In this document: positions 12,454 through 38,869 of the stretch, in pieces
Numbering within the stretch: the stretch's first letter is position 1
Layout: every line of letters begins with the position of its first letter
Source: Oligoflexia bacterium
GTDB taxonomy: Bacteria; Bdellovibrionota; UBA1018
Assembly (NCBI GenBank): GCA_903881565.1
Contig: CAIRTR010000110.1
Span: forward strand, 1 to 41,099
Direction of reading: 5' to 3'
Length of the DNA: 41,099 nucleotides
The notes under the pieces: model-generated
Database searches by the model: none
What the model saw: only the letters and a program-made list of their open reading frames with translations
What the model was told of the DNA's origin: nothing
Position numbers and translations under genes: made by a program

Positions 12454-14811
12454 TCAGGGTTGACTTCGAAGGCTTCTCAGGGCTTCGCTCAGGCATCGCG
12501 CCGTTTTCTTGAACAGCGAGTCTTTTTTCGGAATTGAGTAGAGCTTTTTCTTTTGGATAAATTGGGAGACGGCCGGGGCGAGGTCAGGAGATACTTCGCC
12601 CATGGCTAACTGTTTTCGAATGGCCGATGAGGAAGTGTCAAGATTGGCGCCGTTTTCTAGAAAAATAACGGGGCTGGTTCCCGCGAGAAGAGTCGAAGGC
12701 CTGCCTTCGCCACGCTGAGCGACCACCAAAGTGAGTTTTTTGACGGAGCTTTCTTTCGCGCGCGCGGCCCTGCTTTCAAACCGATCTTCACCCATGATTT
12801 GAAAAAGTTCGGCTTCTGGGTAAAGTTGCTCAAGCCTTCTAAGGACGGAGTTCATAGAGCCTTTGGCAGAGGCCGCTTCCAGATTTCTATCAGCAACGGT
12901 TATGCCCTTCTCTTTGGCAAAGGCAAGGCGAGCCATTTCTTTTCGGAGTTCGTAAGGCGTCGCGCCGGGCTTGGTCTGCGGATCAACATTGGGTACCACG
13001 TAGAGAATGTCCAGACCCAGTGATTCTTTGGTGTTGCGTATCGTTTCAAGATGTCCCGCATGCGGAGGATCAAAAGTTCCCATCATCACACCGATTCGCT
13101 GTCGCTTGCCTAGGTTGGTCCGCTGCCGCTGGGAGAGTCCATAATCGACAAGTGAGTCAATCGCCGTGAGCGCGTCTGAGGTCAACGCACTGAAATCCTT
13201 TTTGCCTTCGTAGATGTCGGCGACGAGGGCTCGATGTTTTTGAAAGCTCGCAAGCCCCGGTTCTGCTCTCGTCACTGCTCCGACTCGATGCGCGCGCGCG
13301 ATCCACTCCTGGGGGCCGCGTGAGGCGGCTTGATTGAGGCGGGCTTCAAGATAAAGTGCCTTTACCGCATTAATGTATTCTCGGGCTTCTTCTCTTTGCG
13401 TGGCATAGCGATCCAGGGTGTTCCAGCTTCTTTCGTTCTCAAAAAGTTTTTTCCATGCAGCGTCTTGTTCAACGGACGGGAGTGCGAGGACCTCTATCGT
13501 TCCCTTGAGAATCTTTCGGACATCGAAGGCGGCAGGCACGATGGATTTTTTTCCAAGGCTTGCTTTGTTGTGCCCTTCGGCGCTGGCAAGTCTCATCACG
13601 GCTTCAAAAAGGTTCCGTTTGGCGGAAAGCGGGAGTTTGGTTACATCCTCGGGAGAGAGCCCTAGCCTTGTGAGCCAGTGCTCCGTCATTTTTGCCTGTG
13701 CGGTTTTGAGGAAAAGATCTTTTAGCTTTGCGGTTTCGGCGTCATCAATCGCATGGGGATACTTTGCTTGAGTCATGATTCGCTTTAGGGACGAGATGTA
13801 GTCGCGCATCTGGTCCGTTTGCCCACTGAGTTTCAATTGTTCGAATAAATAGTCATACTCACCATGGTGCGCATCAAGATAGCGAAAGGTTCCCATGTCG
13901 ATGGTGGAGCCCTGAGTGGTGCGGTTGCCCTGAGTGGGCGAGGCATGGACTGCGTGAAGATCGAAGTATCGAGCCGCTTCTTCGCCGAGGTTTTCAGCAA
14001 AGTTCTTCAAGTAGTTCTGGACTTCAGCTTTTCCTACGGAGGCATCCAGAGCAAGGCCCAGGTCGCGCCGGACCGTGTATTCGAAGATTTTTTTAAACTC
14101 AGCGGGGTTGTCAGAAAAGTACCGTGGATGGGCCACGCGAGTTTGATTCCCCACTCGAACGGTGATCGCTGCTTTGCCGATCTGGATTACGGCCAGATCA
14201 ACCGTTGAGTCGAGTTGATTGCGAAAATTGGCTTCGCTCATGACAAAGCTGTGAACAGCTTCTTCGATACTTTGGAGTCCGTCGGAGTGATCTTTGTCGG
14301 GATGGTTGGTCCAGGCAAGTGGGGTCTGTCCGATGCCTTTTATCACGACGTCGACGTAAGCGGTTTTTCCGTTGGCTTGAGGTAGGCGGATTTCACCTGA
14401 CCAGGCTGCGCGGCCATCACCTAAGGCTTCTCCAGGGGCTTTTGAATTGCTGTCTTGATAGCGAGTGGCGAAAAGTTTGTGCGGGGAGTGGCCTTCTGGA
14501 TCGATTTGAAATGCAAAGTGATCCAGGATCAGTTTCTCAAGTGCTTTCGGATCTTCAGGGAGTGCGAGACCTAAGTGTTGAGCTGCCGAGGGATTGAAGA
14601 GCACGAGTCTTGCGTTGGGCGCGGGTTTGACGGAGAGAGGAACTGAATATTCAGGTCCGAGCGTGAGGTAGGAGTGGTTTCCGGAAGAAGCCTCGTCCCA
14701 ATCCGCTGCAAGGCAAAGGGTGAGTTGAGTCGCAAGAAGCGCCAGTGAAATCGCCAGAGGGGCAATGACCGAAGTGAAGCGCTTTTTGAGGTGCGACAAA
14801 GAGTGACGCAT
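12454..14811 (-). CDS. Exported SelO/YdiU-like region fused to NadD-like nucleotidyltransferase
   Basis: A 785-residue fusion. Residues 1-36 are a signal peptide (basic start, hydrophobic 15-35, CLAA cleavage site). Residues 60-345 follow the SelO/YdiU order: LFNPSAAQHLGL, ALGDGRA (129-135), IKGIGQTP with K158, HSDG plus IEEAVHSFVMSEA (E184), RVGNQTRVAHPR, and GSTIDMGTFRYLDA with D305 at the metal-binding position. SelO proteins are pseudokinase-fold enzymes that AMPylate proteins. Residues 350-570 are helical and unrecognised. Residues 572-760 are NadD-like: GTFDPPHAGH (578-587), VPNVDPQTKP, SMNSVLRRLEQLYP, MGEDRF and TSSSAIR near 726-732, so NaMN adenylyltransferase chemistry is expected. 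No clear ribosome site precedes the ATG. It converges with the CBS gene. The joint function, and where ATP would come from outside the cytoplasm, are unknown. Confidence 0.8.
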   Translation of the reverse strand: MRHSLSHLKKRFTSVIAPLAISLALLATQLTLCLAADWDEASSGNHSYLTLGPEYSVPLSVKPAPNARLVLFNPSAAQHLGLALPEDPKALEKLILDHFAFQIDPEGHSPHKLFATRYQDSNSKAPGEALGDGRAAWSGEIRLPQANGKTAYVDVVIKGIGQTPLAWTNHPDKDHSDGLQSIEEAVHSFVMSEANFRNQLDSTVDLAVIQIGKAAITVRVGNQTRVAHPRYFSDNPAEFKKIFEYTVRRDLGLALDASVGKAEVQNYLKNFAENLGEEAARYFDLHAVHASPTQGNRTTQGSTIDMGTFRYLDAHHGEYDYLFEQLKLSGQTDQMRDYISSLKRIMTQAKYPHAIDDAETAKLKDLFLKTAQAKMTEHWLTRLGLSPEDVTKLPLSAKRNLFEAVMRLASAEGHNKASLGKKSIVPAAFDVRKILKGTIEVLALPSVEQDAAWKKLFENERSWNTLDRYATQREEAREYINAVKALYLEARLNQAASRGPQEWIARAHRVGAVTRAEPGLASFQKHRALVADIYEGKKDFSALTSDALTAIDSLVDYGLSQRQRTNLGKRQRIGVMMGTFDPPHAGHLETIRNTKESLGLDILYVVPNVDPQTKPGATPYELRKEMARLAFAKEKGITVADRNLEAASAKGSMNSVLRRLEQLYPEAELFQIMGEDRFESRAARAKESSVKKLTLVVAQRGEGRPSTLLAGTSPVIFLENGANLDTSSSAIRKQLAMGEVSPDLAPAVSQFIQKKKLYSIPKKDSLFKKTARCLSEALRSLRSQP

Positions 14812-26012: not shown

Positions 26013-27461
26013 ATGATCATGCAAAAAAATAACAAGCCCTTAGCCGTCATGATTTTGGCAGCAGGACAGGGCAAAAGAATGCACTCGGAGCTCCCCAAGG
26101 TTTTACATGAAATTGCGGGGCAATCTCTCTTGTTTCACGTTTTAAAAGCGCTCGAAGCGGTCAGAGATCGAGTCTCTGTTGGAATCGTGGTCGGACATGG
26201 AAAAGAGGCGGTCGAAGCGGCTGTTGAAAAAAGCGGAATCTCTGCGTCATTTTCCGGCGGGATCTCCTTTATCCCTCAGAGCGAGCAAAAGGGGACAGGC
26301 CATGCCGCACGCTGTGCGATGGATTCTCCATGGGGTAAGAAGATCAGGGCACAGGGAGCTGCGGTCCTGGTGTTGCCGGGGGATCTGCCCTTGATTCCTG
26401 CCTCCTTAATAGGCGCGCTTGCTGAACCGTTTAAGGCAAAGACGGTGCTTCGTCTTTTGACCTGCGATTTTGAAAACCCATTTGGCTATGGCCGCGTTTT
26501 GCGTAAGGGAAAAAATGTTCTTCGAATTGTTGAAGAGCGGGATGCGACTCCCACCGAAAAAAGAATTCGTGAAGTGGCGGCCTCTATTTACGCCTTTGAC
26601 GCCAAGTTTTTGGCGGAGTCGTTGCCGAAGCTTACTACCAGCAATGCCCAGGGCGAATACTATCTGACGGATCTTGTTGCTCGGGCCTCAAAAATAAAAT
26701 CAGGCACTGAAATTCTAAAATGGTCCTCTGCTGAGGATCTCCGGGGTGTGAATAACCGGTATGAGCTTTCCGAGGCGGGCCGGATCTTCAATGCTCGACT
26801 GATCAGAAAATGGGCTGAGGCCGGCGTGAGTTTCCGAGATCTTGCTTCGACCTGGCTTGATTCGAGCGTCGAATTAGAAGCGGACGTCACTGTGGGCCCT
26901 GGAGTGGTGTTGCAGGGTAAGACGATTGTTCGAAAAGGGGCGACGCTCGGACCCCATGTTGTGTTAAAAGATGTTGAAGTGGGTGAAGGCGCAAACATTA
27001 AGACGGGATCCGTTGCCGAAGCGTCAAGCATCGGTCGTGGGGTCCACCTTGGGCCTTATGCCCATCTTCGTCCCGACTCGGTCGTCGGAGATGGGTCGAA
27101 GATTGGAAACTTCGTAGAACTCAAGAAAACGAAGATTGGGAACAAGACGAACGTGTCCCATCTTTCATACCTCGGGGATGCCGAGGTTGGGAATCACGTC
27201 AATATCGGGTGTGGCTTTATCACCTGTAATTTTGATGGTCGCGTCATTGAGGGGCAGCGAAAACATCGCACCCTTATAGAGGATGATGTTTTCATGGGGA
27301 GTGATTGTCAGACGGTCGCCCCGGTTCGAATTGGCAAGGGGGCTTATGTAGCCTCAGGCTCAACGATCACGCAGGATGTGGAGCCTGAGGCGCTGGCCAT
27401 TGCTCGCTCTAGACAAGTGAATAAGCTGGGATATGCTCGGAAATTGAAACCCGAAACTTAA
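26013..27461 (+). CDS. glmU: Bifunctional GlmU (GlcN-1-P acetyltransferase / GlcNAc-1-P uridyltransferase)
   Basis: A 482-residue enzyme making UDP-GlcNAc for peptidoglycan and LPS. The N-terminal pyrophosphorylase half has LAAGQGKRM...LPKVLH (15-32), VLPGDLPLI and EGEYYLTDL-like NAQGEYYLTDLV. From about 265 the left-handed beta-helix acetyltransferase begins: hexapeptide-style repeats (VTVGPGVVLQGKTIV, GPHVVLKDVEVGEGANI, HLGPYAHLRPDSVVG), then KKTKIGNKTNVSHLSYLGDA and NIGCGFITCNFDG. Either ATG 26013 or 26019 could start it; both follow an odd ribosome-site arrangement. glmS follows after 29 bases, placing consecutive pathway enzymes in one operon. Confidence 0.96.
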   Translation: MIMQKNNKPLAVMILAAGQGKRMHSELPKVLHEIAGQSLLFHVLKALEAVRDRVSVGIVVGHGKEAVEAAVEKSGISASFSGGISFIPQSEQKGTGHAARCAMDSPWGKKIRAQGAAVLVLPGDLPLIPASLIGALAEPFKAKTVLRLLTCDFENPFGYGRVLRKGKNVLRIVEERDATPTEKRIREVAASIYAFDAKFLAESLPKLTTSNAQGEYYLTDLVARASKIKSGTEILKWSSAEDLRGVNNRYELSEAGRIFNARLIRKWAEAGVSFRDLASTWLDSSVELEADVTVGPGVVLQGKTIVRKGATLGPHVVLKDVEVGEGANIKTGSVAEASSIGRGVHLGPYAHLRPDSVVGDGSKIGNFVELKKTKIGNKTNVSHLSYLGDAEVGNHVNIGCGFITCNFDGRVIEGQRKHRTLIEDDVFMGSDCQTVAPVRIGKGAYVASGSTITQDVEPEALAIARSRQVNKLGYARKLKPET

Positions 27462-27490
27462 AGCCTGGAAATAAAGAAGGAATAAATCTC

Positions 27491-29356
27491 ATGTGTGGAA
27501 TCGTCGGTTACGTCGGACATCGCCCTGCAGTCGAAATTTTATTAAAAGGCCTTAAACGTCTTGAGTACCGCGGATATGATTCGGCGGGCGTTGCTTTTTT
27601 CATGAATGGGAAAATTCAACTCAAGAAGTCCGAAGGGAAACTTGAGAACGTCGAAAAACTTCTTAACGCGAGTGAGCCTCCTTATAGTAGCGCAACCTGC
27701 GGGATCGGGCACACGCGTTGGGCTACTCACGGCAAACCCACGACCCAAAATGCCCATCCCCATCGCACGGGACACATTGTCTTGGTTCACAATGGGATTA
27801 TCGAAAACTATCAGGACCTTAAAAAAGAAATCATCACTTGGGGCAAAACGCCTCAATCAGAAACTGACAGTGAACTTTTTGGTTTCTTAGTCGAGCGAGA
27901 AGTTCAAGGTGGCGCTTCGTTTGTAGACGCGGTTCGTAAGAGTTTCACGCGGCTTGAAGGCGGCTGCAGCGTCGTCGTGATGTCTGAAAATGATCCCGGC
28001 GTCATCGTCGGCGTGAGAAACGGTTCACCGCTGGTTGCAGCCATTGATCCTCAGGGTGGGGCCGTACTGGCGAGTGATGCGCAGCCGCTTTTGGATATTA
28101 CTCAAGAAGTGTTTTTTCTCGAGCATGGAGACGTCGTAGTCGGGACCGAAAAGGGCATCGAGTTCTTTGATCTCAAAACGGGCGCTAAAGTTCAGCGCGC
28201 GATGACCAAAATCGATTGGTCAGTCGAGAAACTCGATAAACAAGGGTTTGCTCATTATATGCTCAAAGAAATTCATGAGCAGCCCACGGCACTGGTCGAT
28301 ACCCTCAACAGTATTCTGGATCGTGCGAAGACGGATCCGTTTCCGTTGGCACTTCAGCCTGCCGTGGGAATTTTGGACAAAGCCGAGCAGATCATGCTCG
28401 TGGCGTGTGGCACTTCTTGGCATGCGGCATTGCTTGGAAAATTTTGGTTAGAAAACTGGGCGCGGATTCCGACCCACGTCGAGCTTGCCAGTGAGTTTCG
28501 CTATCGTAATCCGGTCATCATGCCCGGAACGGTTGTTATTGGAGTGACTCAATCGGGTGAAACCGCAGATACCTTGGCCGTCTTGAAGCAGATGCGCGAA
28601 CTGGGAGTTCCAACCTTGGGCGTGACCAACGTTCGAAACAGTACGGTGTCCCGCGAGGCGGACGCGGTCCTTTATACCTCCGCAGGTCCGGAAATCGGTG
28701 TCGCTGCCACAAAAACGTTCTCTACCCAGATGCTCGTCATGCTGCTTGCGGCGGGTTATCTTGCTATAAAACGCTCGGCGTCGTCGAACAAAGAAGTGAC
28801 CAAGCTTTTTCATGATCTTGTAAAGCTCCCCATGCTGCTCTCGCAGAATCTTGAAGAGGGTGGAGCGTGGATGCAAGTCATTCGCAAGGCGGCTCAAAAT
28901 CTTTACAAGTCAAAGGGCTTCTTTTTTATCGGGCGAGGCTACTCGTTTCCGCTTGCGCTTGAAGGCGCCCTGAAACTCAAGGAAATCGCCTATGTCCATG
29001 CTGAAGGCTACGCCGCCGGTGAGTTGAAGCATGGGCCCATTGCCATGATCGATAACGAAATGGCGGTCATTGTTATCGCCCCTTGTGATCGTTGGCGCGA
29101 TAAGACGATTTCGAACCTCGAAGAAGTTAAAGCCCGCGGCGCGATCATTGTGGGGGTGGGTGAAGAGGGGGATGAGAAATTCAGATCCCTCTGCAATCAT
29201 TGGATTCCGCTGCCGCATGCCTCCGATCTTCACGAATCGTTGCTGCCCTTCTTGGTGGCACCTATTGTGCAGTTGCTCAGTTATGAGCTCGCGGTTCTCA
29301 AAGGGACTGATGTGGACAAACCTAGAAACCTAGCCAAGAGTGTGACGGTAGAGTGA
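27491..29356 (+). CDS. glmS: Glucosamine-6-phosphate synthase (isomerizing)
   Basis: A 621-residue enzyme that converts fructose-6-phosphate and glutamine to glucosamine-6-phosphate, the entry step of amino-sugar synthesis. It begins MCGIVGYVG, where the cysteine after the removed methionine is the glutaminase nucleophile; KRLEYRGYDSAG, HTRWATHGKP and HNGIIENYQDL are the other N-terminal amidotransferase blocks. Two SIS sugar-isomerase domains follow (ACGTSWHAALLGKFW, VTQSGETADTLAVL, FFIGRGYSFPLALEGALKL), and the protein ends PRNLAKSVTVE as in the family. An AAGAAGGA ribosome site precedes the ATG. The 29-base gap from glmU is too short for a glmS ribozyme. The stop overlaps the pcrA start. 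Confidence 0.97.
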   Translation: MCGIVGYVGHRPAVEILLKGLKRLEYRGYDSAGVAFFMNGKIQLKKSEGKLENVEKLLNASEPPYSSATCGIGHTRWATHGKPTTQNAHPHRTGHIVLVHNGIIENYQDLKKEIITWGKTPQSETDSELFGFLVEREVQGGASFVDAVRKSFTRLEGGCSVVVMSENDPGVIVGVRNGSPLVAAIDPQGGAVLASDAQPLLDITQEVFFLEHGDVVVGTEKGIEFFDLKTGAKVQRAMTKIDWSVEKLDKQGFAHYMLKEIHEQPTALVDTLNSILDRAKTDPFPLALQPAVGILDKAEQIMLVACGTSWHAALLGKFWLENWARIPTHVELASEFRYRNPVIMPGTVVIGVTQSGETADTLAVLKQMRELGVPTLGVTNVRNSTVSREADAVLYTSAGPEIGVAATKTFSTQMLVMLLAAGYLAIKRSASSNKEVTKLFHDLVKLPMLLSQNLEEGGAWMQVIRKAAQNLYKSKGFFFIGRGYSFPLALEGALKLKEIAYVHAEGYAAGELKHGPIAMIDNEMAVIVIAPCDRWRDKTISNLEEVKARGAIIVGVGEEGDEKFRSLCNHWIPLPHASDLHESLLPFLVAPIVQLLSYELAVLKGTDVDKPRNLAKSVTVE

Positions 29357-31737
29357 TGTCGTATTTTGCAGGACTAAATGAGCGTCAGCGCGAAGCGGTT
29401 TTGATCACCGAAGGTCCGCTGATGGTGTTGGCGGGCGCGGGTTCAGGTAAGACGAAGATGCTGACTTCGCGCATGGCTCATTTGATCGAGGCCCTGCGGG
29501 TGCCGCCTTGGCAGATTCTGGCGGTCACGTTTACGAACAAAGCCGCAGGCGAGATGCGCGAGCGAGTCGAGCGAGCCTTGGCGTCGGTCGGTGAGGGATC
29601 CTTGAGTATCGCGCGGCCTGAGATCGGGACTTTCCACTCGGTGTGCGTACGAATCCTAAGGCGTGAGATGGCGCATACGCCGTTTTCAAAACCGTTTGTC
29701 ATTTACGACGACTCCGATCAGCTTCGCCTACTCAAAGACGTGATGCAAAAGGTGGGGCTTGACGAGAAGAAGGTGAGTCCCAAATCTCTGCAGGGCGCCA
29801 TCAATCGCTTGAAGTGTGATGCGACGGAACCGCAAGACCTCCAGCCCGCTCCTCATGACCTTTTTGAGCGGCACTTAAAGGTCGTATACGAGCAATATCA
29901 GAAGGATCTGTTTCAGAACAACGCCTTGGATTTTGGCGAGATTCTTTGCATGACCTATCGCTTGATTCGCGACAATGCTGAGATTCGGACGAAGTATCAG
30001 CAGCGGTTTCGCTACATCCATGTTGATGAGTATCAAGACACGAACCGCGCGCAATATCAGCTCCTATCAACGCTTGCGAGCCGAAGACATGGCGGGCACG
30101 AAAACATGTGTGTGGTCGGTGATGAAGATCAGTCGATCTATCGCTGGCGCGGGGCGGATATCAGGAACATTCTAGAATTTGAAACTGATTTTCCCGGTGC
30201 AAAGACCGTGAAGCTTGAACAAAACTACCGCTCCACGCAAACGATTATCAAAGCGGCGGGTGCCGTGATTGCCAACAATACCACGCGTAAAGAAAAGACT
30301 CTTTGGACAGAAAACGAAGAAGGGCTTGCCATCGAGCATTATGATGTCCTGGATGAGCGCGCGGAGGCCGAAAGTGTCGTGGGCGAAGTGAAGCGCCTGG
30401 CGGCTCACGAAGGGTATTCGTACTCGGATTTTGCGATCTTTTATCGCACCAACGCCCAAAGCCGACAGTTTGAAGATGTGTTGAGGCGCGAGAAGATCCC
30501 CTATCAGGTTTTGGGGGGGCTCAGGTTCTATGATCGTAAGGAAATTAAGGACATTCTAGCCTATTTGAAGCTCATCATGAATCCGGCGGATTCGGTGAGT
30601 CTCAAGCGCATCATTAATGTGCCTGCGCGTGGGATCGGTAAAACAACGCTTGAGAAGCTTGATGCCCTGACCTTGTCTGAGGGTGAAGGGTTTAATTATT
30701 GGAGCGCGCTCCACAAAGCGGCCGCGACGCCAGAGTTGACCTCCGCCGGAACGGCTCGAAAATTATCGCAGTTCACGGCTATCATGGGGCGATTGATCGC
30801 AGCCCAAGAAACGCTTTCGATCACGGAGCTGTATCACCGCATTTTGGATGAAACGAGCTACGTTCAGGACCTGCGCCAAGAAGGCACCGAAGAGTCGCTC
30901 TCGCGCATCGAAAACTTAGAAGAGTTTGATACGCTTTTACAGGAATTCGAAGAAGATGCACTTCGCGGACTCTCAGAAGCCGAGACGCAACAGAGACAGC
31001 GTGAGCTTTTGCCCTTGTTCCTGGAGCAATCCACCCTCGTTTCAGATGTGGACTCACTGGACGGTAATGCGTCCACGGTAAAAATGATGACACTGCATTC
31101 CTCCAAGGGCCTCGAATACCCCGTGGTCTTTATGGCGGGTATGGAAGAAGGTCTTTTTCCTTCTCAACGTGAATGGGAAGAGCAAGATCCGATGGAGATG
31201 GAAGAGGAGCGCAGGCTTTGCTACGTGGGGATGACTCGCGCGCGCAAGTTGCTCTTTATGTTGAGTGCGCAGGCCAGACGAATCTGGGGAAACACGGTTT
31301 TTCAGGAAAAATCGAGATTTTTGTCAGAGATCCCTGAGGAGTTTATTCATTCGCGGTCTCCTCGAGTGGAGCACGGCAGTTCTTACCGCGCGCCTGCAAA
31401 GGCGGGTTATTCAGGTAATGCGGGGTATTCGGGCAATTCGGGTCAGTCGACTTATGCGCAAAACCCTGCGTTTTCGCCCTCGCGTTCTGAGGAACGTCAA
31501 CAGGCTCATACGCCGCCTCATTCTCCTGGGCGGCCCAATCTGACGCTTGTTAAGTCAGGTCCTTCCTCCAACGAAATGGTCGGGCAACGCTTGGCGCATC
31601 CCGATTACGGTCCGGGCACGGTGGTCGGAGTCGAAGATTCGGGCGAAAATCAAAAAGTTACGGTAGAGTTTGGAGGCAAGCAGAAGCGCAAGTTCCTGCT
31701 TCGCTATGTTTCGCAGTACCTGGGGCTTGTTTGGTAA
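29356..31737 (+). CDS. pcrA: ATP-dependent DNA helicase PcrA/UvrD (second of two)
   Basis: A 793-residue SF1A 3'-5' helicase with a full motif set: LAGAGSGKT (25-33), FTNKAAGEMRERV, VDEYQDTN (223-230), DEDQSIYRWRGAD, QNYRSTQT, LHSSKGLEYPVVF and EERRLCYVGMTRA. After the core comes a low-complexity linker rich in Gly, Tyr, Ser and Asn with AGYSGN-type repeats (about 680-745), then the PcrA C-terminal tudor-like domain (VGQRLAHPDYGPGTVVGV to the end), which binds RNA polymerase in PcrA. I chose the ATG at 29356, which shares one base with the glmS stop (TGATG), over a GTG one codon earlier. Likely roles are repair and removal of stalled polymerase or recombinase. Confidence 0.95.
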   Translation: MSYFAGLNERQREAVLITEGPLMVLAGAGSGKTKMLTSRMAHLIEALRVPPWQILAVTFTNKAAGEMRERVERALASVGEGSLSIARPEIGTFHSVCVRILRREMAHTPFSKPFVIYDDSDQLRLLKDVMQKVGLDEKKVSPKSLQGAINRLKCDATEPQDLQPAPHDLFERHLKVVYEQYQKDLFQNNALDFGEILCMTYRLIRDNAEIRTKYQQRFRYIHVDEYQDTNRAQYQLLSTLASRRHGGHENMCVVGDEDQSIYRWRGADIRNILEFETDFPGAKTVKLEQNYRSTQTIIKAAGAVIANNTTRKEKTLWTENEEGLAIEHYDVLDERAEAESVVGEVKRLAAHEGYSYSDFAIFYRTNAQSRQFEDVLRREKIPYQVLGGLRFYDRKEIKDILAYLKLIMNPADSVSLKRIINVPARGIGKTTLEKLDALTLSEGEGFNYWSALHKAAATPELTSAGTARKLSQFTAIMGRLIAAQETLSITELYHRILDETSYVQDLRQEGTEESLSRIENLEEFDTLLQEFEEDALRGLSEAETQQRQRELLPLFLEQSTLVSDVDSLDGNASTVKMMTLHSSKGLEYPVVFMAGMEEGLFPSQREWEEQDPMEMEEERRLCYVGMTRARKLLFMLSAQARRIWGNTVFQEKSRFLSEIPEEFIHSRSPRVEHGSSYRAPAKAGYSGNAGYSGNSGQSTYAQNPAFSPSRSEERQQAHTPPHSPGRPNLTLVKSGPSSNEMVGQRLAHPDYGPGTVVGVEDSGENQKVTVEFGGKQKRKFLLRYVSQYLGLVW

Positions 31738-31749
31738 GAAGGGGATCAT

Positions 31750-32055
31750 ATGGACATGAATGCAATTTCACGCTCCGTTGCCAAGCTTGCGCGACTGGAG
31801 CTGAGTGAAGAAGAAGTCACGACCTTCTCTGATCAGCTCAAACAAGTGCTGACTTATATCGATCAACTCCAAAGTGTTCCTGAGAGTAGTTTAGGCGCGC
31901 CCCTTTATCATCCGCTGGAGCTTCCCACTTTGTTGCGCGAAGATCAGGCGAAGACGCCGCAATTGGATTCAGAAGGACGTCCCTCGATGCTATCAGCGGC
32001 CTCGCAAACGGATGGACTCATTGGGACTGCATATAAGGTTCCTCCGATTTTATGA
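31750..32055 (+). CDS. gatC: Asp-tRNA(Asn)/Glu-tRNA(Gln) amidotransferase subunit C
   Basis: A 101-residue GatC. The N-terminal helices VAKLARLELSEEEVTTFS and LKQVLTYIDQLQSV and the later LREDQAKT are family hallmarks. GatC wraps between GatA and GatB and stabilises the complex. Its last four bases (ATGA) are the start of gatA, so the two are translationally coupled. It lies 12 bases after pcrA, preceded by a GAAGGGG ribosome site. Confidence 0.95.
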   Translation: MDMNAISRSVAKLARLELSEEEVTTFSDQLKQVLTYIDQLQSVPESSLGAPLYHPLELPTLLREDQAKTPQLDSEGRPSMLSAASQTDGLIGTAYKVPPIL

Positions 32056-33503
32056 AAAAGATTCAATCGATTGCAGAAGTTCATGACGGCTTTGATAACA
32101 AAGCATTTACTCCGCTCGAGTTGGCGCAAGAGTATTTGGGGCGAATTCACGCAAGTCAGCTTAATGCGTTTTTGACCGTGTCTGAGGAAAAGGCTATTTT
32201 TCAGGCCAAAAAAGCGACAGCTGAACTCATGAAGTGGGGACGCGTTCCTCGTGAGGCGCAGCCGCTTTTTGGAATTCCTTTTGGGTTAAAAGACAATCTG
32301 GTGACCCAGGGTCTTCGTACGACTTGTGGATCGCGAATTTTGGAGAATTATGTTCCGCCTTATTCTGCGACCGTCGTGGAACGAGTCGAGAAGGCGGGCG
32401 CAGTGATTTTGGGTAAGCTCAATATGGATGAGTTTGCCATGGGAAGTTCAAACGAGAATTCTGCTTTTGGTCCTGTTCAGCACCCCACGCATCCCGGCTA
32501 TGTTCCTGGGGGTTCAAGCGGAGGTTCCGCAAGTGCGGTTGCGGCAGGACTTTGTGTTGCGGCTTTGGGCTCTGATACCGGAGGCTCAATTCGCTTGCCG
32601 GCTTCGTTTTGCGGGGTCACGGGCGTTAAGCCAACTTACGGGCGCGTGAGTCGTTACGGTTTAGTGGCCTTTGCTTCGTCGCTGGATCAGATTGGGCCTT
32701 TGACGAATTCAGTGAGAGATTCGGCCACGGTACTGGATGTGATCTCGGGCGCTGATCCGATGGATTCGACGAGTATTCAGGGGGTGTCTGAGAAATATGT
32801 GGCGGGGCTTTCCGCGCCCATGGATTGGTCAAAGGTTCGAATCGGAATTCCAAAAGAATATTTTGTTTCCGGCGTGCAGGCCGAAGTTGCTGCTTCTATG
32901 CAGGATGCGATCAAGTGGTTTGAAAAGCAGGGCGCACAGTGCGTGTCGGTCACACTGCCTCATACCTCCTATGCGGTGTCGGTTTATTATGTTGTGGCGG
33001 TGAGTGAGGCTTCAAGCAATTTGGCACGTTTTGATGGCGTGCGCTTTGGGGTGCGGCCAGAGGGGCTTTCAAGTTCTCAAGGCGATCTCTTGAGTTTTTA
33101 TAAACAGGTACGCACGCGTTTTGGTGACGAAGTAAAACGTCGGATTTTGTTGGGCACGTTTGCGCTCTCCAGTGGCTATTCGGATCAGTATTACCAGAAG
33201 GCTTGTCAGGTGCGGCGTTTGATTCAGCAAGACTTTACCGCCGCTTTTGAAAAGGTCGATTTTATTTTAGGCCCTGTCGCACCGACCACGGCCTTTAAGT
33301 TGGGTGAAAAGTCTCAAGACCCGCTGCAAATGTATCTCAACGATATTTTCACGATCCCGGCGAACTTGGCGGGGCTCCCAGCCCTGAGTGTGCCGTGTGG
33401 TAAGGACTCTGCAGGATTGCCCATTGGGCTGCACTTAGCAGGTCGACTCTATTCGGATTCGGAGCTTATCCGGATCGCAGATGCATTCGAAAGGAGGGCC
33501 TAG
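32052..33503 (+). CDS. gatA: Asp/Glu-tRNA amidotransferase subunit A
   Basis: A 483-residue amidase-signature enzyme that releases ammonia from glutamine for GatB. The Ser-cisSer-Lys triad is in place: K80 in [11 protein letters not shown]155 in [11 protein letters not shown] and S179 in [15 protein letters not shown]. The glycine/serine-rich signature and the C-terminal [12 protein letters not shown] and GLHLAGR blocks are typical. With GatB and GatC it converts misacylated Glu-tRNA(Gln) and Asp-tRNA(Asn), so this organism probably lacks GlnRS or AsnRS, or both. gatB begins three bases after its stop and its ribosome site lies inside the end of gatA. Confidence 0.96.
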
Positions 33504-33506
33504 GCC

Positions 33507-34973
33507 ATGCAATCAGAATTTGAAGCTGTGATTGGTTTAGAAGTGCACTGCCAGCTCTCTACGCGGAGCAAGATTTTTTGCGCTTGCCCCGCTCGAATGA
33601 CTGAGGGGCAATCAGTGGCCGATATCACGCCCAATCTAAATACGTGTCCCGTGTGCACAGGTCAACCTGGCGCGCTCCCGGTCTTAAATAAAAAGGTTGT
33701 CGAGTACGCCGTTCTTGCGGGGTTAGCGACCCATTGTGAGATCCAGATGCACAGCGTGTTTTCGCGTAAGAACTATTTTTACCCTGACTTGCCTAAGGGC
33801 TATCAGATTTCGCAATATGATTTACCGGTGTGCGGAAAAGGTTGGCTTGAAATTCCAGGAGGCTCTGCGCCTAAGCGCATTGGCATCACTCGGATTCATC
33901 TTGAAGAGGATGCCGGCAAAAATGTTCACGAAGTGGGATATTCGGCCGTTAATTTAAATCGCGCAGGCGTTCCGCTAATCGAGATTGTGAGTGAGCCCGA
34001 GATGTTTTCCGCCGAGGAAGCTGGGGCATATTTGCGGACACTTCATTCTCTGGTCGTGACGCTCGGGATTTGTGACGGGAACATGCAAGAAGGTAATTTT
34101 CGCTGTGACGCCAATGTGAGTGTGCGCAAGCGAGGCGCCACGGCCCTGGGAACGCGGGCCGAGATCAAGAATGTGAACTCGTTTCGTTTTATTGAAAAAG
34201 CCATTGAGTATGAGATTCAGCGCCAAATTCAAGTCGTTGTTTCTGGGGGACAAGTTGTTCAAGAAACGCGCGGGTATGATTCGGATAAGAATGTGACTCT
34301 CTCGCAGCGAAGCAAAGAAGAAGCGCATGATTATCGATACTTTCCGGATCCTGATTTGTTGCCGTTAAGGCTCACGCCAGAGTGGGTGGAGAAGTTAAGG
34401 GGAGCGTTGCCGGAGCTTCCGGATCAAAAGCGGGCGCGCTATAGCGAACAGTATAAACTGTCTTCACAAGATGCAGGGACGTTGAGCAATTCAAAATCCC
34501 TGTCTGATTTTTTCGAGAGGACGATTGCATTGTTTCCGGCTGGCGATCTAAGTGCGCCTGCCAAGGCGATTGTGAATTTTCTGACGGGAGAGCTGACGCG
34601 GCTTTCGTCAGAGGCTTCAGTGGAACTTGCGCAGAGCAAAGTAACGCCTCGCCATTTGGCGGATTTGGTACAGGTGTCACTCTCGGGAGTGATTTCGAGC
34701 TCTGGGGCGAAGCAGGTTTTGATTTCGGTATGGAATTCAGGTGCGCCGGTTGATTCGGTCATTGAAAAAGAAGGCCTCAAGCAAGTGAGTGATGTGGGCG
34801 CTCTTGAACCGATTGTTCAGAAGATCATCGATAGCAATCCAAGCCAAGCAGCAGAGCTCAAAGCGGGTAAAGAGAAGCTCATGAGCTTTTTCGTGGGGCA
34901 GGCGATGAAGGCCTCAGGCGGAAAAGCCAACCCCGCGTTAGTTTCTCAGATCGTTAAAAAGTTACTCGCGTAG
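33507..34973 (+). CDS. gatB: Asp/Glu-tRNA amidotransferase subunit B
   Basis: A 488-residue GatB, the kinase/transamidase subunit that activates the misacylated tRNA with ATP. It starts FEAVIGLEVHCQLSTRSKIFC with four zinc-type cysteines (25-27 region, C47-P-V-C50 in NTCPVCTGQPGALP), then the catalytic cradle NYFYPDLPKGYQISQYD, LEEDAGK, NLNRAGVPLIEIVSEP and EIKNVNSFRFIEKAIEYEI. The tail has the YqeY-like helical domain. An AAAGGAGG ribosome site lies just upstream. The AsmA-like gene follows after eight bases with AGGAG overlapping the gatB stop. Confidence 0.96.
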   Translation: MQSEFEAVIGLEVHCQLSTRSKIFCACPARMTEGQSVADITPNLNTCPVCTGQPGALPVLNKKVVEYAVLAGLATHCEIQMHSVFSRKNYFYPDLPKGYQISQYDLPVCGKGWLEIPGGSAPKRIGITRIHLEEDAGKNVHEVGYSAVNLNRAGVPLIEIVSEPEMFSAEEAGAYLRTLHSLVVTLGICDGNMQEGNFRCDANVSVRKRGATALGTRAEIKNVNSFRFIEKAIEYEIQRQIQVVVSGGQVVQETRGYDSDKNVTLSQRSKEEAHDYRYFPDPDLLPLRLTPEWVEKLRGALPELPDQKRARYSEQYKLSSQDAGTLSNSKSLSDFFERTIALFPAGDLSAPAKAIVNFLTGELTRLSSEASVELAQSKVTPRHLADLVQVSLSGVISSSGAKQVLISVWNSGAPVDSVIEKEGLKQVSDVGALEPIVQKIIDSNPSQAAELKAGKEKLMSFFVGQAMKASGGKANPALVSQIVKKLLA

Positions 34974-34981
34974 GAGCGTTT

Positions 34982-36517
34982 ATGAAAAAGGCTTTCCAGA
35001 TTATCGGGCTTTCCACTTTATTTATTGGGCTCGTGTTATTGGTTCTCTCTTTTGCAGTGGATGTGAATCCCTTTCGAGCCAGGTTTGCGGCGAGATTGAA
35101 TCAGTTTGTGGATGGTCAGGTCGAAGTTGGAAAGTTTTCAGTCTCATTGTTGGGGCGCGTTCGTGTGCGGGCGGCGGGACTTCGGATTCGTGACCGCGAC
35201 GGCAATCCCGTGTTCAATGCCCAAGAGGCTGATTTTGATGTGCCGTTGCTTGCGCTTTTGAAGGGGACTCCGGAAATCACGCTTAAGCTCGAGGGCCCCG
35301 AGGTTTTCTCGACGAAGAACGCGGCGGGAAGACATTCACTGCTGGATGTTTTCCACTTAGCAGAGTCTGAGGGTACGTTCACGCTCCCCGGGATTTTGGC
35401 CACGGCTCGATTCGGAGTTGACGTGTCGAATGCCAGGTTCATTTACCGCGATGAGCTCACACACCAAGAGACGGTGTTTTCTAATTTGAATTTTCGCGCT
35501 CAGGACCTGTCTTTGCTAAAACCTATAAAGGCCGAAGCGTGGGGTGTGCTTGATACCAAGGCGGCAGCGGGTTGGACCTTGAAGGGCCCCGTGAAGGCGA
35601 CGTTGGGGCTACAAACAAGTTTAAAGGGTCGAGAGCTGGAAAAAATTTCTACTGAAATCCATTTGGACCTGGATCAGGCAGAATTGGCACTCCCTCAATC
35701 GTATACAAAGAAGGCGGGGGCGATCGCTCATCTGGATGTCGCGCTCGTAGGGACACCGACAGAGCTTGAAATACGACGTTTTGATTTGAGTTTGCTGAAT
35801 GCGGTGTTGTCAGGTTCAGGAGTATTGAAGAAGGGGGGCTCTCTTGGCGAAGGGGGCATCCTCGATTTTAAGGCGAAGACGGCTGATATTTTGCTTAAAC
35901 CTTGGGGTGAGTTCTTTGGCGGGACACGAGAGTTGATCGGCGATGGCACTGGCCATTTTTTGATCACGACCCAAGGTCCTATGGATCAGCTCAAGCCGGA
36001 GTTTCGCTTAGCTGTTGAGGCTCCTGCTTACGGTGGAAAACTCAAGGTTGATTTTGTAATGAATAAGTTTTTGAACGGGATGAGCTCGCCATATCATGTG
36101 ACGGCGAAACTATCAGATGCCCAGGCAAGCCTCATCTCGTCTGCCCTTTTTGGAAGCGCTGTGATGAGCGTGGAGGGTGAGACAGGTGGCTTTTCGAACG
36201 ATGAGTTTTTAGGCCGATTTGTCGGTAAGGGTGAGGGTGCTTTTGAGGGTGCGAAGTTTGAAGGGGTGGCGTTGCCGCTTGAGCAAGTTTCCATCGGATT
36301 TTCTGTTCAAGAAGGGCATTTGGTTTGCACGAATTTGAAGGCGGTTGAGAAGACCAAAAAGATAGTGAAGCAGTATTTTGGAGATTTCCAGCTCTCACTG
36401 CTTGATTCAAAGCTACAAGGGAGTTTGGAGTCATTGAAGAGTCCAAAAGTTATCGGGACGCTGGGCTGTGACTTGGCTAAGCCCTGCCTCCAGATGCAAA
36501 AAGGGAAGCACCCATGA
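34982..36517 (+). CDS. AsmA-like membrane-anchored protein
   Basis: A 511-residue protein with one N-terminal transmembrane anchor (about 7-27) and a long periplasmic part rich in beta strands. The start VDVNPFRARFAARLNQFVDGQVEVGKFSVSLLGRVRVRAAGLRI-type layout (about 27-75) is the AsmA/TamB opening, where a curved beta-groove protein spans the periplasm and carries lipids to the outer membrane. The middle has DFDVPLLALLKG and later TTQGPMDQLKPEFRLAVE blocks that resemble AsmA repeats. It is shorter than E. coli AsmA or TamB. It sits between gatB and the Ppx/GppA gene, with an ATGA overlap at its end, so it is probably part of the housekeeping operon. Function is inferred from the family only. 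Confidence 0.75.
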   Translation: MKKAFQIIGLSTLFIGLVLLVLSFAVDVNPFRARFAARLNQFVDGQVEVGKFSVSLLGRVRVRAAGLRIRDRDGNPVFNAQEADFDVPLLALLKGTPEITLKLEGPEVFSTKNAAGRHSLLDVFHLAESEGTFTLPGILATARFGVDVSNARFIYRDELTHQETVFSNLNFRAQDLSLLKPIKAEAWGVLDTKAAAGWTLKGPVKATLGLQTSLKGRELEKISTEIHLDLDQAELALPQSYTKKAGAIAHLDVALVGTPTELEIRRFDLSLLNAVLSGSGVLKKGGSLGEGGILDFKAKTADILLKPWGEFFGGTRELIGDGTGHFLITTQGPMDQLKPEFRLAVEAPAYGGKLKVDFVMNKFLNGMSSPYHVTAKLSDAQASLISSALFGSAVMSVEGETGGFSNDEFLGRFVGKGEGAFEGAKFEGVALPLEQVSIGFSVQEGHLVCTNLKAVEKTKKIVKQYFGDFQLSLLDSKLQGSLESLKSPKVIGTLGCDLAKPCLQMQKGKHP

Positions 36518-37428
36518 TTCGGGCTTCGATTGACCTAGGAACTAACACCTGCTTGTTGCTTATTGCCGAAGTTGCGGTGGCTGGCGAGCCTGTGTCGAAA
36601 GTGCTCGGGGATTTTGCGCAGGTGGTGCGGCTGGGTGAGGGTCTGGATCAAAACCGGAAATTCAAGAGTGAGGCGATGGAGCGGGCACTTGCGTGCTTGA
36701 GTGATTATGCTGCAAAAGTCCGTGCGCACGGAGTGGACCCCGCCCAAGTCACCTGTATCGCGACAAGCCAGGCCCGTGATTCTGGTAATTGGGAAGAGTT
36801 CAAGGCGCGCGTTCAGCGTGAAACGGGATTTTTGTTCAAGTTGGTTTCAGGCGAAGGCGAAGCTTCACTGAGCTTTCGCGGGGCAATGCTGCCGGGAATG
36901 GATTCGCAAAATACCGCCGTGATTGATATTGGCGGCGGGAGTACGGAGTTTATTGCGCTTGCTGGTACGCGCGCGGTAGGGCACAGCCTGGATGTGGGGG
37001 CGGTTCGATTTACGGAGCGTTATTTGAGATCCGATCCCGTGACCGATGCGGAGTTTTGGAAATGCCAAGATCAGATCGATCAGGCGCTTCTGACGTTATT
37101 GCCTTGGCGCAAAAGTGTTTCGCCATCAGTTGCGTTAGTGGGGGTTGCAGGAACCGTGACGACGCTTGCGGCTTATCAACTGGAACTTGCGACTTTTGAT
37201 GCGCGCAAAATCGATGGCGCGGTTCTGACTCGTGGTGATGTTCATCGCCAAGTTGAAGAGCTTAAGTGGCGAACTGTGGCGGAGCGTTTGAAACTCCCGG
37301 GCGTTGAAGCCGGGCGTGCGGATGTTTTGCTTGCAGGGGCCTTGATCTTGTGGCGCGCGATGGAAGTGCTCGAGTTTCAGAACTGCACTGTGAGTACGCG
37401 GGGACTAAGGTACGGAGCGCTGGGCTAA
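36514..37428 (+). CDS. Ppx/GppA-family phosphatase
   Basis: A 304-residue single-module member of the exopolyphosphatase/pppGpp-phosphatase family (ASKHA fold). Visible motifs are IDLGTNTCLLLIAEV (6-20, phosphate-1 loop), ATSQARDSGN, SGEGEASLSFRG, VIDIGGGSTEF (phosphate-2 loop) and VALVGVAGTVTTLAAY. It stops after the two core domains, lacking the HD-type C-terminal half of E. coli Ppx and GppA, as in many short family members. It could hydrolyse polyphosphate or convert pppGpp to ppGpp. Its ATG overlaps the AsmA-like stop (ATGA). It is the last gene of the glmU operon; the inverted repeat 40 bases downstream has no U-run and is a weak terminator at best. Confidence 0.9.
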   Translation: MIRASIDLGTNTCLLLIAEVAVAGEPVSKVLGDFAQVVRLGEGLDQNRKFKSEAMERALACLSDYAAKVRAHGVDPAQVTCIATSQARDSGNWEEFKARVQRETGFLFKLVSGEGEASLSFRGAMLPGMDSQNTAVIDIGGGSTEFIALAGTRAVGHSLDVGAVRFTERYLRSDPVTDAEFWKCQDQIDQALLTLLPWRKSVSPSVALVGVAGTVTTLAAYQLELATFDARKIDGAVLTRGDVHRQVEELKWRTVAERLKLPGVEAGRADVLLAGALILWRAMEVLEFQNCTVSTRGLRYGALG

Positions 37429-37469
37429 AATGCCTGTATTTTCGTGTTGTTGGATGCTTTGTTCATGGT

Positions 37470-37499
37470 GTGACTAAAATAGGGGTGTCTTTTAGTCAC
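37470..37499. promoter_or_regulatory. Perfect 10-bp inverted repeat upstream of the AAA ATPase gene
   Basis: GTGACTAAAA (37470-37479) and TTTTAGTCAC (37490-37499) are exact inverted copies with a 10-base spacer; centre-to-centre distance is two helical turns. An A/T-rich stretch (TATTATATA, 37506-37514) that could be a -10 element follows, just before the ATG at 37520. This looks like an operator for a dimeric regulator next to the promoter. A terminator for the upstream operon is less likely because no T-run follows. Confidence 0.6.
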
Positions 37500-37519
37500 A
37501 ATTAGACTATTATATACCT

Positions 37520-38869
37520 ATGTTTCGATTTGCCGAAGAAGATCTAAAGTCTTGGTGGAAATCTTCTCGGAGAAAACCCCTGATCCTACGGGGTGCTCGC
37601 CAGGTGGGGAAGTCAACTCTCGTTCGGCAGTTCGCTGCTTCAATGGGGCTTGAGCTCTTCGAACTCAATTTGGAAAAAAGGCCATTGCGTCAGGCCTTTG
37701 AAACGTTGGATCCCAAAGCTGTTTTGAGGGATGTCGAAGCCCTTCTTGGCAAGAGGTTTGATCCTGCGCGGAGCTTGTTGTTTCTCGATGAGATTCAAGC
37801 CAATTCAAAGGCAATTGAGGCGTTGAGATATTTTTATGAAGAGGCCCCGAAGATTCCCGTAATTGCCGCGGGCTCTTTGCTTGAATTTGCAATCGAAGAC
37901 GGTCAGTTTTCAATGCCGGTAGGGCGAGTCGAATACCTCCATCTGGGTCCCATGCGGTTTGGCGAGTTTCTCAAGGCCACTCAAGCGGAGCATCTTTACG
38001 AGCGACTTAGCGAATGTCGCAAGAAGAAGCTCTCGATACAGGAGCATGAACTCCTCCTGCTGAAGCTGCATGAATATTTTTTTGTAGGCGGAATGCCCGA
38101 GGCCGTTTTGGCATTTTCTGAAGGAGGCTCTGTTGTGGAGGCTCGCCGAGTTCAGCACTCCATTCTGGAAACTTATAGAGATGACTTTCCAAAGTATGCC
38201 AAGAAATCCGAAATTGATCGGCTCGACCGCATATTTGAATATGTCCCTCGGGCCCTGGGGCAGAAAGTAAAGTACAGTAACATCGCTTCCGAGGTGCAGT
38301 CGAAATACTTAAAGGCTGCCATAAATTTACTGATTAAGGCACGAGTTATTCTTCCCGTTTTTCACTCTGATTGTTCGGGACTCCCACTTGCTGCGGGAAG
38401 AGCCGATTTAGTTTATAAGCTCTACTTCTTGGATGTCGGGCTCGCAAATGCTTCAATGGGATTAAAGTGGGAGGAGATCAAACAAGCTGAAGCACTTTGG
38501 CTTCAAAAAGGGGCGATCGCTGAGCAGTTTGTGGCGCAACATCTTATCCAACACGCAAAGCCCTATCCTGAGCTCTTTTATTGGTTACGAGACGGGGGCA
38601 AGGGAAATGCTGAAATTGATTTCGTTTTCAGTAGCGGAGGACGAGTCGTTCCGCTTGAAGTCAAAGCTGGGAAGTCGGGATCACTAAAATCTTTGCACCA
38701 GTTCATGCACGAAAAGAAACTGAAACACGCCTTTCGTCTTGATGGAGCTTTGCCGACGAAACAACACGTCGATGTGCAACTCATGACAGCTAAGAGTCAA
38801 GCTCATTCACGATACCAATTGGAAAGTTGGCCATTGTATGCTGTGGATCAGGTCGTGGCTGAAGGTTGA
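37520..38869 (+). CDS. AAA-type ATPase with DUF4143 domain
   Basis: A 449-residue protein of the widespread AAA_14/DUF4143 group. Walker A is GARQVGKS (25-32) and Walker B LLFLDEIQ (86-93); AAGSLLEFA and the GRVEYLHLGPMRFGEFL stretch follow, as usual in this group. The C-terminal domain (about 200-430) has VPRALGQKVKYSNIASEV, YKLYFLDVGLANASMG and RDGGKGNAEIDFVFSSGG, then VPLEVKAG: this last part (E...D...E-x-K) resembles a PD-(D/E)XK nuclease-like core. Members are often found in accessory DNA and their role is unclear. It stands alone with a putative operator upstream. Confidence 0.88.
   Translation: MFRFAEEDLKSWWKSSRRKPLILRGARQVGKSTLVRQFAASMGLELFELNLEKRPLRQAFETLDPKAVLRDVEALLGKRFDPARSLLFLDEIQANSKAIEALRYFYEEAPKIPVIAAGSLLEFAIEDGQFSMPVGRVEYLHLGPMRFGEFLKATQAEHLYERLSECRKKKLSIQEHELLLLKLHEYFFVGGMPEAVLAFSEGGSVVEARRVQHSILETYRDDFPKYAKKSEIDRLDRIFEYVPRALGQKVKYSNIASEVQSKYLKAAINLLIKARVILPVFHSDCSGLPLAAGRADLVYKLYFLDVGLANASMGLKWEEIKQAEALWLQKGAIAEQFVAQHLIQHAKPYPELFYWLRDGGKGNAEIDFVFSSGGRVVPLEVKAGKSGSLKSLHQFMHEKKLKHAFRLDGALPTKQHVDVQLMTAKSQAHSRYQLESWPLYAVDQVVAEG

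Follow-up and report, generated by a model that had tools for sequence, protein, structure and literature searches.

The window, the whole stretch of 41,099 nucleotides analysed here, carries a gene for a protein in which a signal-peptide-like N-terminus, a SelO-like module, a NadD-like module and a short tail with a single cysteine follow one another (Table 1). Both modules represent AMP-handling enzymes normally kept intracellular. The SelO catalytic loop is changed and the tryptophan that in NadD stacks on nicotinate is lost, so the fusion counts as an orthodox member of neither the SelO nor the NadD family. Our preferred reading, to which we give a probability of about 0.4, is an exported effector that would act on the NAD/adenylate pool of a target (prey) cell, with a chemistry, a delivery and a predatory role that we infer. 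Each fold is known by itself; what is apparently undescribed is the exported fusion, the exported NadD-like family without the tryptophan and the terminal cysteine. The preliminary description had called the combination of modules unfamiliar, and we find no exported SelO/NadD fusion in a limited literature search or in the phage and plasmid collections searched.

Table 1. Features of the fusion gene, in window coordinates.
Feature	Position	Strand	Basis
Complete CDS, 785 aa, single open frame	12454..14811	(-)	Homologous fused frames L099/L043 and L100/L004
Signal-peptide-like N-terminus, aa 1-35	14707..14811	(-)	Sequence and simple heuristic
SelO-like protein-kinase-fold module, aa 36-566, including the 350-570 region previously called a linker	13114..14706	(-)	NF000658, hhalign, AF2 and Foldseek, SelO paralog match
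K158 codon, equivalent of SelO Lys113 (phosphate-binding lysine), invariant in family	14338..14340	(-)	Alignment; Lys113 role from PMC8097203
Rewritten catalytic loop, aa 289-307, HASPTQGN...IDMG; N296 and D305 kept, NTDN to TQGN	13891..13947	(-)	PT.GN invariant in 11 family members
NadD-like nucleotidyltransferase module, aa 569-760	12532..13107	(-)	TIGR00482 E=9e-24, PF01467 9e-14, Foldseek 2e-10
GTFDPPHAGH ATP-binding motif, aa 578-587	13051..13080	(-)	Sequence
SSSAIR motif (NadD ISSTxIR-type), aa 727-732	12616..12633	(-)	Sequence
C-terminal tail, aa 763-785; helix 763-782 predicted with low confidence; Cys773 codon 12493-12495, sole Cys of mature protein	12457..12525	(-)	Sequence, AF2

The frame of 785 codons runs uninterrupted from ATG to TGA with no internal stops, as originally described. 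A search for the architecture across Bdellovibrionota finds the full order of signal-peptide-like N-terminus, SelO-like module, NadD-like module and Cys tail in a Bacteriovoracaceae metagenome-assembled genome (L099/L043, 45% identity), and the same fusion order in an Oligoflexia one (L100/L004, 44% identity). In L101 (RIFOXYD12), the SelO-like module is followed by a decayed NadD remnant with FFFSSFDRPLP in place of GTFDPPHxGH. Five more exported SelO-like proteins (L102, L103, L104, L105 and L107) have no NadD module. The fusion in two other assemblies and the decayed copy in a third rule out an assembly or frameshift artefact, the joining of two genes by error that the preliminary description had considered. 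A scan of the genome contigs with the single protein matched nothing, and the relatives were found with an alignment-based search. In 369 Bdellovibrionota genomes, a sharp gap separates nine members with E < 1e-150 from the other SelO relatives, which have E-values of 4e-24 or weaker. In the tree, the nine exported proteins cluster together (92/96), with the non-exported L106 and L108 from Pseudomonadota metagenome-assembled genomes as sisters (96/98). The tree is consistent with about one gain of the fusion followed by loss or decay, with the inner branches weakly supported.

The window is one contig (C110) of a draft genome of 4.56 Mb, 98.75% complete. Among named relatives, those closest to the SelO module come from Bdellovibrionota metagenome-assembled genomes, which bears out the phylum assumed in the preliminary description. 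The source genome also carries an ordinary NadD-like gene (C101, L003) and a second SelO-family gene (C231, L002), which indicates that the window fusion is not the housekeeping copy of either. The fusion gene stands alone, with a CBS-domain gene on one side and small unassigned ORFs on the other. The compared neighbourhoods of 12-18 kb have no operon partner common to the exported clade, so context supports neither action on the NAD/adenylate pool nor protein AMPylation. A role in anti-phage defence was rejected for lack of a PADLOC match, and a mobile-element origin for lack of a full-length relative in the phage and plasmid collections searched. Elsewhere in the window, positions 26013-38869 hold large plus-strand frames in an operon-like run, eight of them of 300-800 aa with one of 101 aa in between.

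Several comparisons identify the SelO-like module. The NCBIfam model NF000658 (YdiU) matches aa 46-391 with E=5e-14, at a score of 52 bits that is below the curated cut-off of 431. Pfam reports only CTP_transf_like in the window protein and no SelO match; the fused relative L004, the same protein as L100, is above the Pfam SelO cut-off (59 vs 22.8 bits). A profile-profile alignment with hhalign against 13 canonical SelO sequences gives a probability of 99.7% and E=5.6e-27 over 332 columns. The AlphaFold2 model, made with 11 sequences, has a mean pLDDT of 78.4 and a pTM of 0.72 and is of low confidence in the tail and in some stretches of the NadD module. Compared with the PDB by Foldseek, it ranks the Pseudomonas syringae SelO structure 6eac at the top (5.7e-19, TMt 0.76), then YdiU structures, three of them NAD-bound (9jym, 9jyn, 9l29), and then many NadD structures from 2e-10. 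The hhalign and Foldseek matches bear out the SelO fold that had been proposed for residues 60-345. The next 220 or so residues (350-570), described earlier as an unrecognised linker, complete the SelO module as its C-terminal half. An HMM of the exported SelO-like clade can be aligned over its full length with ordinary SelO paralogs of 600-650 aa, which rules out a separate linker domain.

The motifs ALGDGRA (R134), IKGIGQTP (K158), HASPTQGN and IDMG (D305) are all found as described. R134, K158, R219, R225, N296 and D305 are invariant across 11 family members with 34-45% identity. By alignment to canonical SelO, we take R219 and R225 as Arg176 and Arg183, N296 as the metal Asn, and D305 as the DFG-type Asp; the roles of the SelO nucleotide-site residues are given in PMC8097203. 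The canonical NTDN aligns with TQGN, where Gly (G295) replaces the Asp. The loop alteration noted at the outset is common to the family, every member of which has PTxGN. The alpha-C Glu136 aligns with S188, a position that is Ser in the nine exported proteins and Glu in the non-exported sisters L106 and L108. E184, which had been placed in the series of SelO motifs, is indeed invariant in the family, but it sits one helical turn before the alpha-C Glu position. Judged from these residues, nucleotide binding looks preserved and catalysis looks altered; the change of the NTDN Asp to Gly together with that of the alpha-C Glu to Ser may even abolish catalysis. With the loop and the alpha-C Glu rewritten across the whole exported clade, the simple protein AMPylation first proposed loses its footing.

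The NadD-like module shows a similar mixture of conservation and loss. TIGR00482 (NadD) matches aa 575-758 at 84.6 bits, below the equivalog cut-off of 112.45; with both modules under their NCBIfam curated cut-offs, neither is an orthodox family member. GTFDPPHAGH, MGEDRF and TSSSAIR are present as reported, but the NadD-type set is not complete as claimed, for it lacks the Trp that stacks on nicotinate along with the sequence around it. This Trp (of GxDxxxxLxxW) is found in 15/15 comparison NadDs and 0/27 exported NadD-like domains (Fisher p=1e-11), nearly all of which keep GTFDPxHxGH and SSxxIR. The equivalent of His45 is Thr in the window protein. E. coli NadD uses W117 and H45 for stacking against the nicotinate ring and Y118 for binding the carboxyl/amide of that ring, and an engineered E. 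coli NadD without the stacking contacts turns its preference to NMN (PMC8035330). Having kept the ATP motifs and lost the Trp pocket, the module is improbable as a NaMN adenylyltransferase; it is probably NadD-like in fold and ATP handling.

The exported state is read from the N-terminus, where KKR is followed by about 20 hydrophobic residues ending in ...LCLA^ADWDE. A simple heuristic agrees with the signal peptide proposed earlier, and similar N-termini occur in all nine members of the exported clade and in neither of the sisters L106 and L108. The window protein is probably exported by a Sec-dependent route; in B. bacteriovorus HD100, Sec signal peptides carry proteins out into the medium (PMC12622784). 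A predatory setting fits the phylum, and predation by the uncultivated source lineage is plausible.

At the other end, all nine exported SelO-like proteins (L099-L105, L107 and the window protein) have a Cys 5-19 residues before their C-terminus. Counting from mature starts picked by eye, the 5664 body residues of the nine proteins include just two further Cys, and the tails have nine where 0.06 would be expected (Fisher p=1e-12). The non-exported sisters L106 and L108 lack the Cys tail. A similar C-terminal Cys is found in ten other exported NadD-like proteins, and most fusions with a ParB-like domain have instead one Cys close to the start of the mature chain (as in AEPVDCSFLL and AENCKVFLES); in L008 and L012 both are missing. 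The tail Cys is not a general export tag in the source genome, as it is rare among the other signal-peptide-like proteins in the roughly 297 kb sampled. In the canonical SelO comparison set the Cys is at -3 (14/14), compared with -13 in the window protein. According to a commentary (PMC13391479) on Jia et al., human SelO requires its C-terminal Cys/Sec to act as an NADase. The tail Cys could take part in catalysis, form a disulphide or serve as a handling tag; since exported NadD-like proteins without a SelO module carry one too, it may be a tag and not a catalytic residue.

The SelO fusion is one part of what seems to be a broader, undescribed family of Trp-less exported NadD-like proteins. 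A profile made from seven exported NadD-like domains retrieves many more across Bdellovibrionota, and when the 27 exported domains are placed in one tree with 15 comparison NadDs, a single branch divides the two sets (99/95). The 27 domains of the exported clade mostly bear signal peptides, by N-termini judged by eye in most rows, and have at least five types of partner; the frames of L085 and L089 are cut or without a clear signal-peptide-like N-terminus. Trp-less rows with varied partners are L007, L008, L010-L012, L076-L086, L088-L093, L095 and L096. Several partner assignments (ParB/Srx-like, kinase-like and papain-like) are impressions by eye with no Pfam match. A conserved N-terminal domain, ParB/Srx-like on this basis, is found in L008, L011, L012, L076-L084, L086 and L091. 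It has about 250 aa with the pattern APGHRxLRxPxQV...DLWNAHHR and no convincing Pfam match, and is the commonest partner (L076-L084, L086, L091). A nucleotidyltransferase-like N-terminus occurs in L007 and L090, the latter with an added alpha/beta hydrolase (E=4e-30). L085 has an IucA/IucC-like siderophore-synthetase domain (E=2e-5), and L089 has weak SLOG-like segments. By reading, L010 has a papain-like C-terminus, and L011 and L091 have kinase-like ones. Single-domain copies with a signal-peptide-like N-terminus also occur (L088, L092, L093, L095).

How might such an effector work? SelO moves AMP from ATP onto proteins (PMC8097203) and YdiU UMPylates (PMC9239237). The commentary on Jia et al. 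(PMC13391479) also reports SelO hydrolysing NAD+ to NMN and AMP with Mn2+, which is the reverse of NMNAT-type chemistry. On the preferred reading, the two-module enzyme would work outside the producer cytoplasm, in a compartment containing ATP and NAD, most simply the target cell. The SelO-like module would bind NAD+ or ATP in the inverted manner of SelO, cut at the alpha-phosphate, and free or transfer AMP. The NadD-like module would bind ATP and pass an adenylyl group to an acceptor that is not NaMN, most simply to NMN or to some other molecule made by the first module. With both modules at work on NAD+ and NMN, the net result could be turnover of ATP to AMP and PPi, carried by NAD, or a net loss of NAD. 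The order of the reactions, their coupling, the acceptor and the delivery into prey are guesses. The three NAD-bound YdiU structures among the top Foldseek matches count for NAD as the ligand, and the near-unique C-terminal Cys of the clade, at another distance from the end, counts for the parallel with the NADase described in the commentary. The Trp lost in all 27 scored domains, taken with the NMN shift of the engineered E. coli NadD, counts for NMN as acceptor, and the loss of the W117 equivalent could also point to an unrelated acceptor. With the NadD module absent from 5/9 clade members and decayed in one, the two activities may run independently of each other.

An alternative that keeps the idea of a secreted effector, modified from the preliminary description, has the SelO-like module AMPylating or UMPylating Ser/Thr/Tyr of target proteins and the NadD-like module adding a second nucleotidylation. 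It draws on the SelO fold, on the kept phosphate-binding Lys/Arg and metal Asn/Asp, and on SelO and YdiU being AMPylases and UMPylators (PMC8097203, PMC9239237). We find it unlikely, because the NTDN Asp and the alpha-C Glu are gone throughout the exported clade, because Salmonella YdiU D248A, mutated at the putative match to G295, is described as without UMPylation (PMC9239237), and because the recurring NadD partner is left unexplained. The same rewritten loop, the decayed NadD remnant of L101 and the missing nicotinate-stacking Trp in all exported copies would suit a pair of nucleotide-binding pseudoenzymes, which would bind ATP or NAD for targeting, sensing or scaffolding and take effect by binding. 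Against this, K158, N296, D305, both Arg and, where not decayed, the HxGH and SSxxIR of NadD are strictly kept over a large divergence, which suggests selection for catalysis and makes pseudoenzymes a distinctly unlikely explanation.

Two further alternatives give the protein a metabolic task. ATP is not expected in the periplasm or the medium. This counts against an extracellular or periplasmic enzyme, not directed at cells, whose NadD-like module adenylylates a siderophore, sugar or cofactor precursor while the SelO-like module salvages NAD. The fusions of a NadD-like domain to the IucA/IucC-like domain in L085 and to the hydrolase in L090 lend this some support, but the patchy occurrence and changing partners resemble effectors and not core metabolism, and we regard it as very unlikely. 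Synthesis of NAD precursors in prey, with the NadD module turning NaMN and ATP into NaAD for uptake by the predator, has in its favour the NadD fold and ATP motifs. This part of the preliminary description becomes doubtful with the W117 equivalent missing in 27/27, Thr at the H45 position and a score under the equivalog cut-off, and we hold it to be highly improbable.

A wider form of the preferred reading, the effector on the NAD/adenylate pool, has Bdellovibrionota using a modular effector family built on a re-purposed NadD-like adenylyltransferase and marked by a near-unique Cys close to one of its ends, in which the SelO fusion would run a NAD-carried futile cycle that burns target ATP or drains NAD; we regard it as unlikely. 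If these readings were true, exported NAD/adenylate enzymes would belong to the toolkit of a predator-rich phylum, and the members of the family would be recognisable by a signal-peptide-like N-terminus, a Trp-less NadD-like domain and a terminal Cys. The recent report of SelO NADase activity would also connect with a naturally occurring protein that joins a SelO-like module to a fold of the NMNAT type.

Among known systems, SelO/YdiU (PF02696; 6eac, 6lna, 9jym) shares with the window protein the kinase-like fold, GDGRA, KGxGxT, the R...R pair, the Asn and Asp of the nucleotide/metal site, and a C-terminal Cys, at 17-18% identity to 6eac. The window protein differs in being exported, in having TQGN for NTDN, Ser for the alpha-C Glu and Leu for the Arg of GDGR (L174, R130), and in lacking the CSS/CGT ending, with the NadD module and a longer tail in its place. 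NadD (TIGR00482; 1kam, 4ymi) shares the Rossmann-like nucleotidyltransferase fold, GTFDPPHxGH and SSxxIR at 22-27% identity, whereas the window module is exported, C-terminal in a multidomain protein, and without equivalents of Trp117 and His45 or the SYT motif. SidJ comes from a different bacterium, Legionella, and is delivered by other means. Likened by description, this effector and polyglutamylase is also a secreted SelO-related pseudokinase with a repurposed active site (PMC12599244), with a different chemistry and no NadD module.

In two distant members only, a selD/selU-type pair lies near the SelO-like gene (L103:7623-11770, L108:3838-9626). The AIRS-domain (selD-type) and rhodanese-domain (selU-type) genes are directly downstream of it in L103 and divergent in L108, a possible selenium link or a coincidence; selU is common in genomes both with and without an exported SelO-like gene. 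The long Bdellovibrionota SelO paralogs (about 600-650 aa) share the fold and match the family profile end to end. One of them, L002 of the source genome (G000:C231, about 617 aa), differs from the window protein in having no signal-peptide-like N-terminus and no NadD module; its loop is WDGDN for NTDN, with Ser at the Lys113 position by eye. SelO paralogs of this WDGDN type, 600-650 aa long, occur in about 200 other genomes, over half of the 369 from Bdellovibrionota that were searched. A separate second SelO-like group, with L031 (G020), G003:C13 and L022 (G005), has about 710-740 aa and the loop FYHGxTxPSN. At least L031 has a signal-peptide-like N-terminus, which indicates that exported SelO-like proteins arose a second time.
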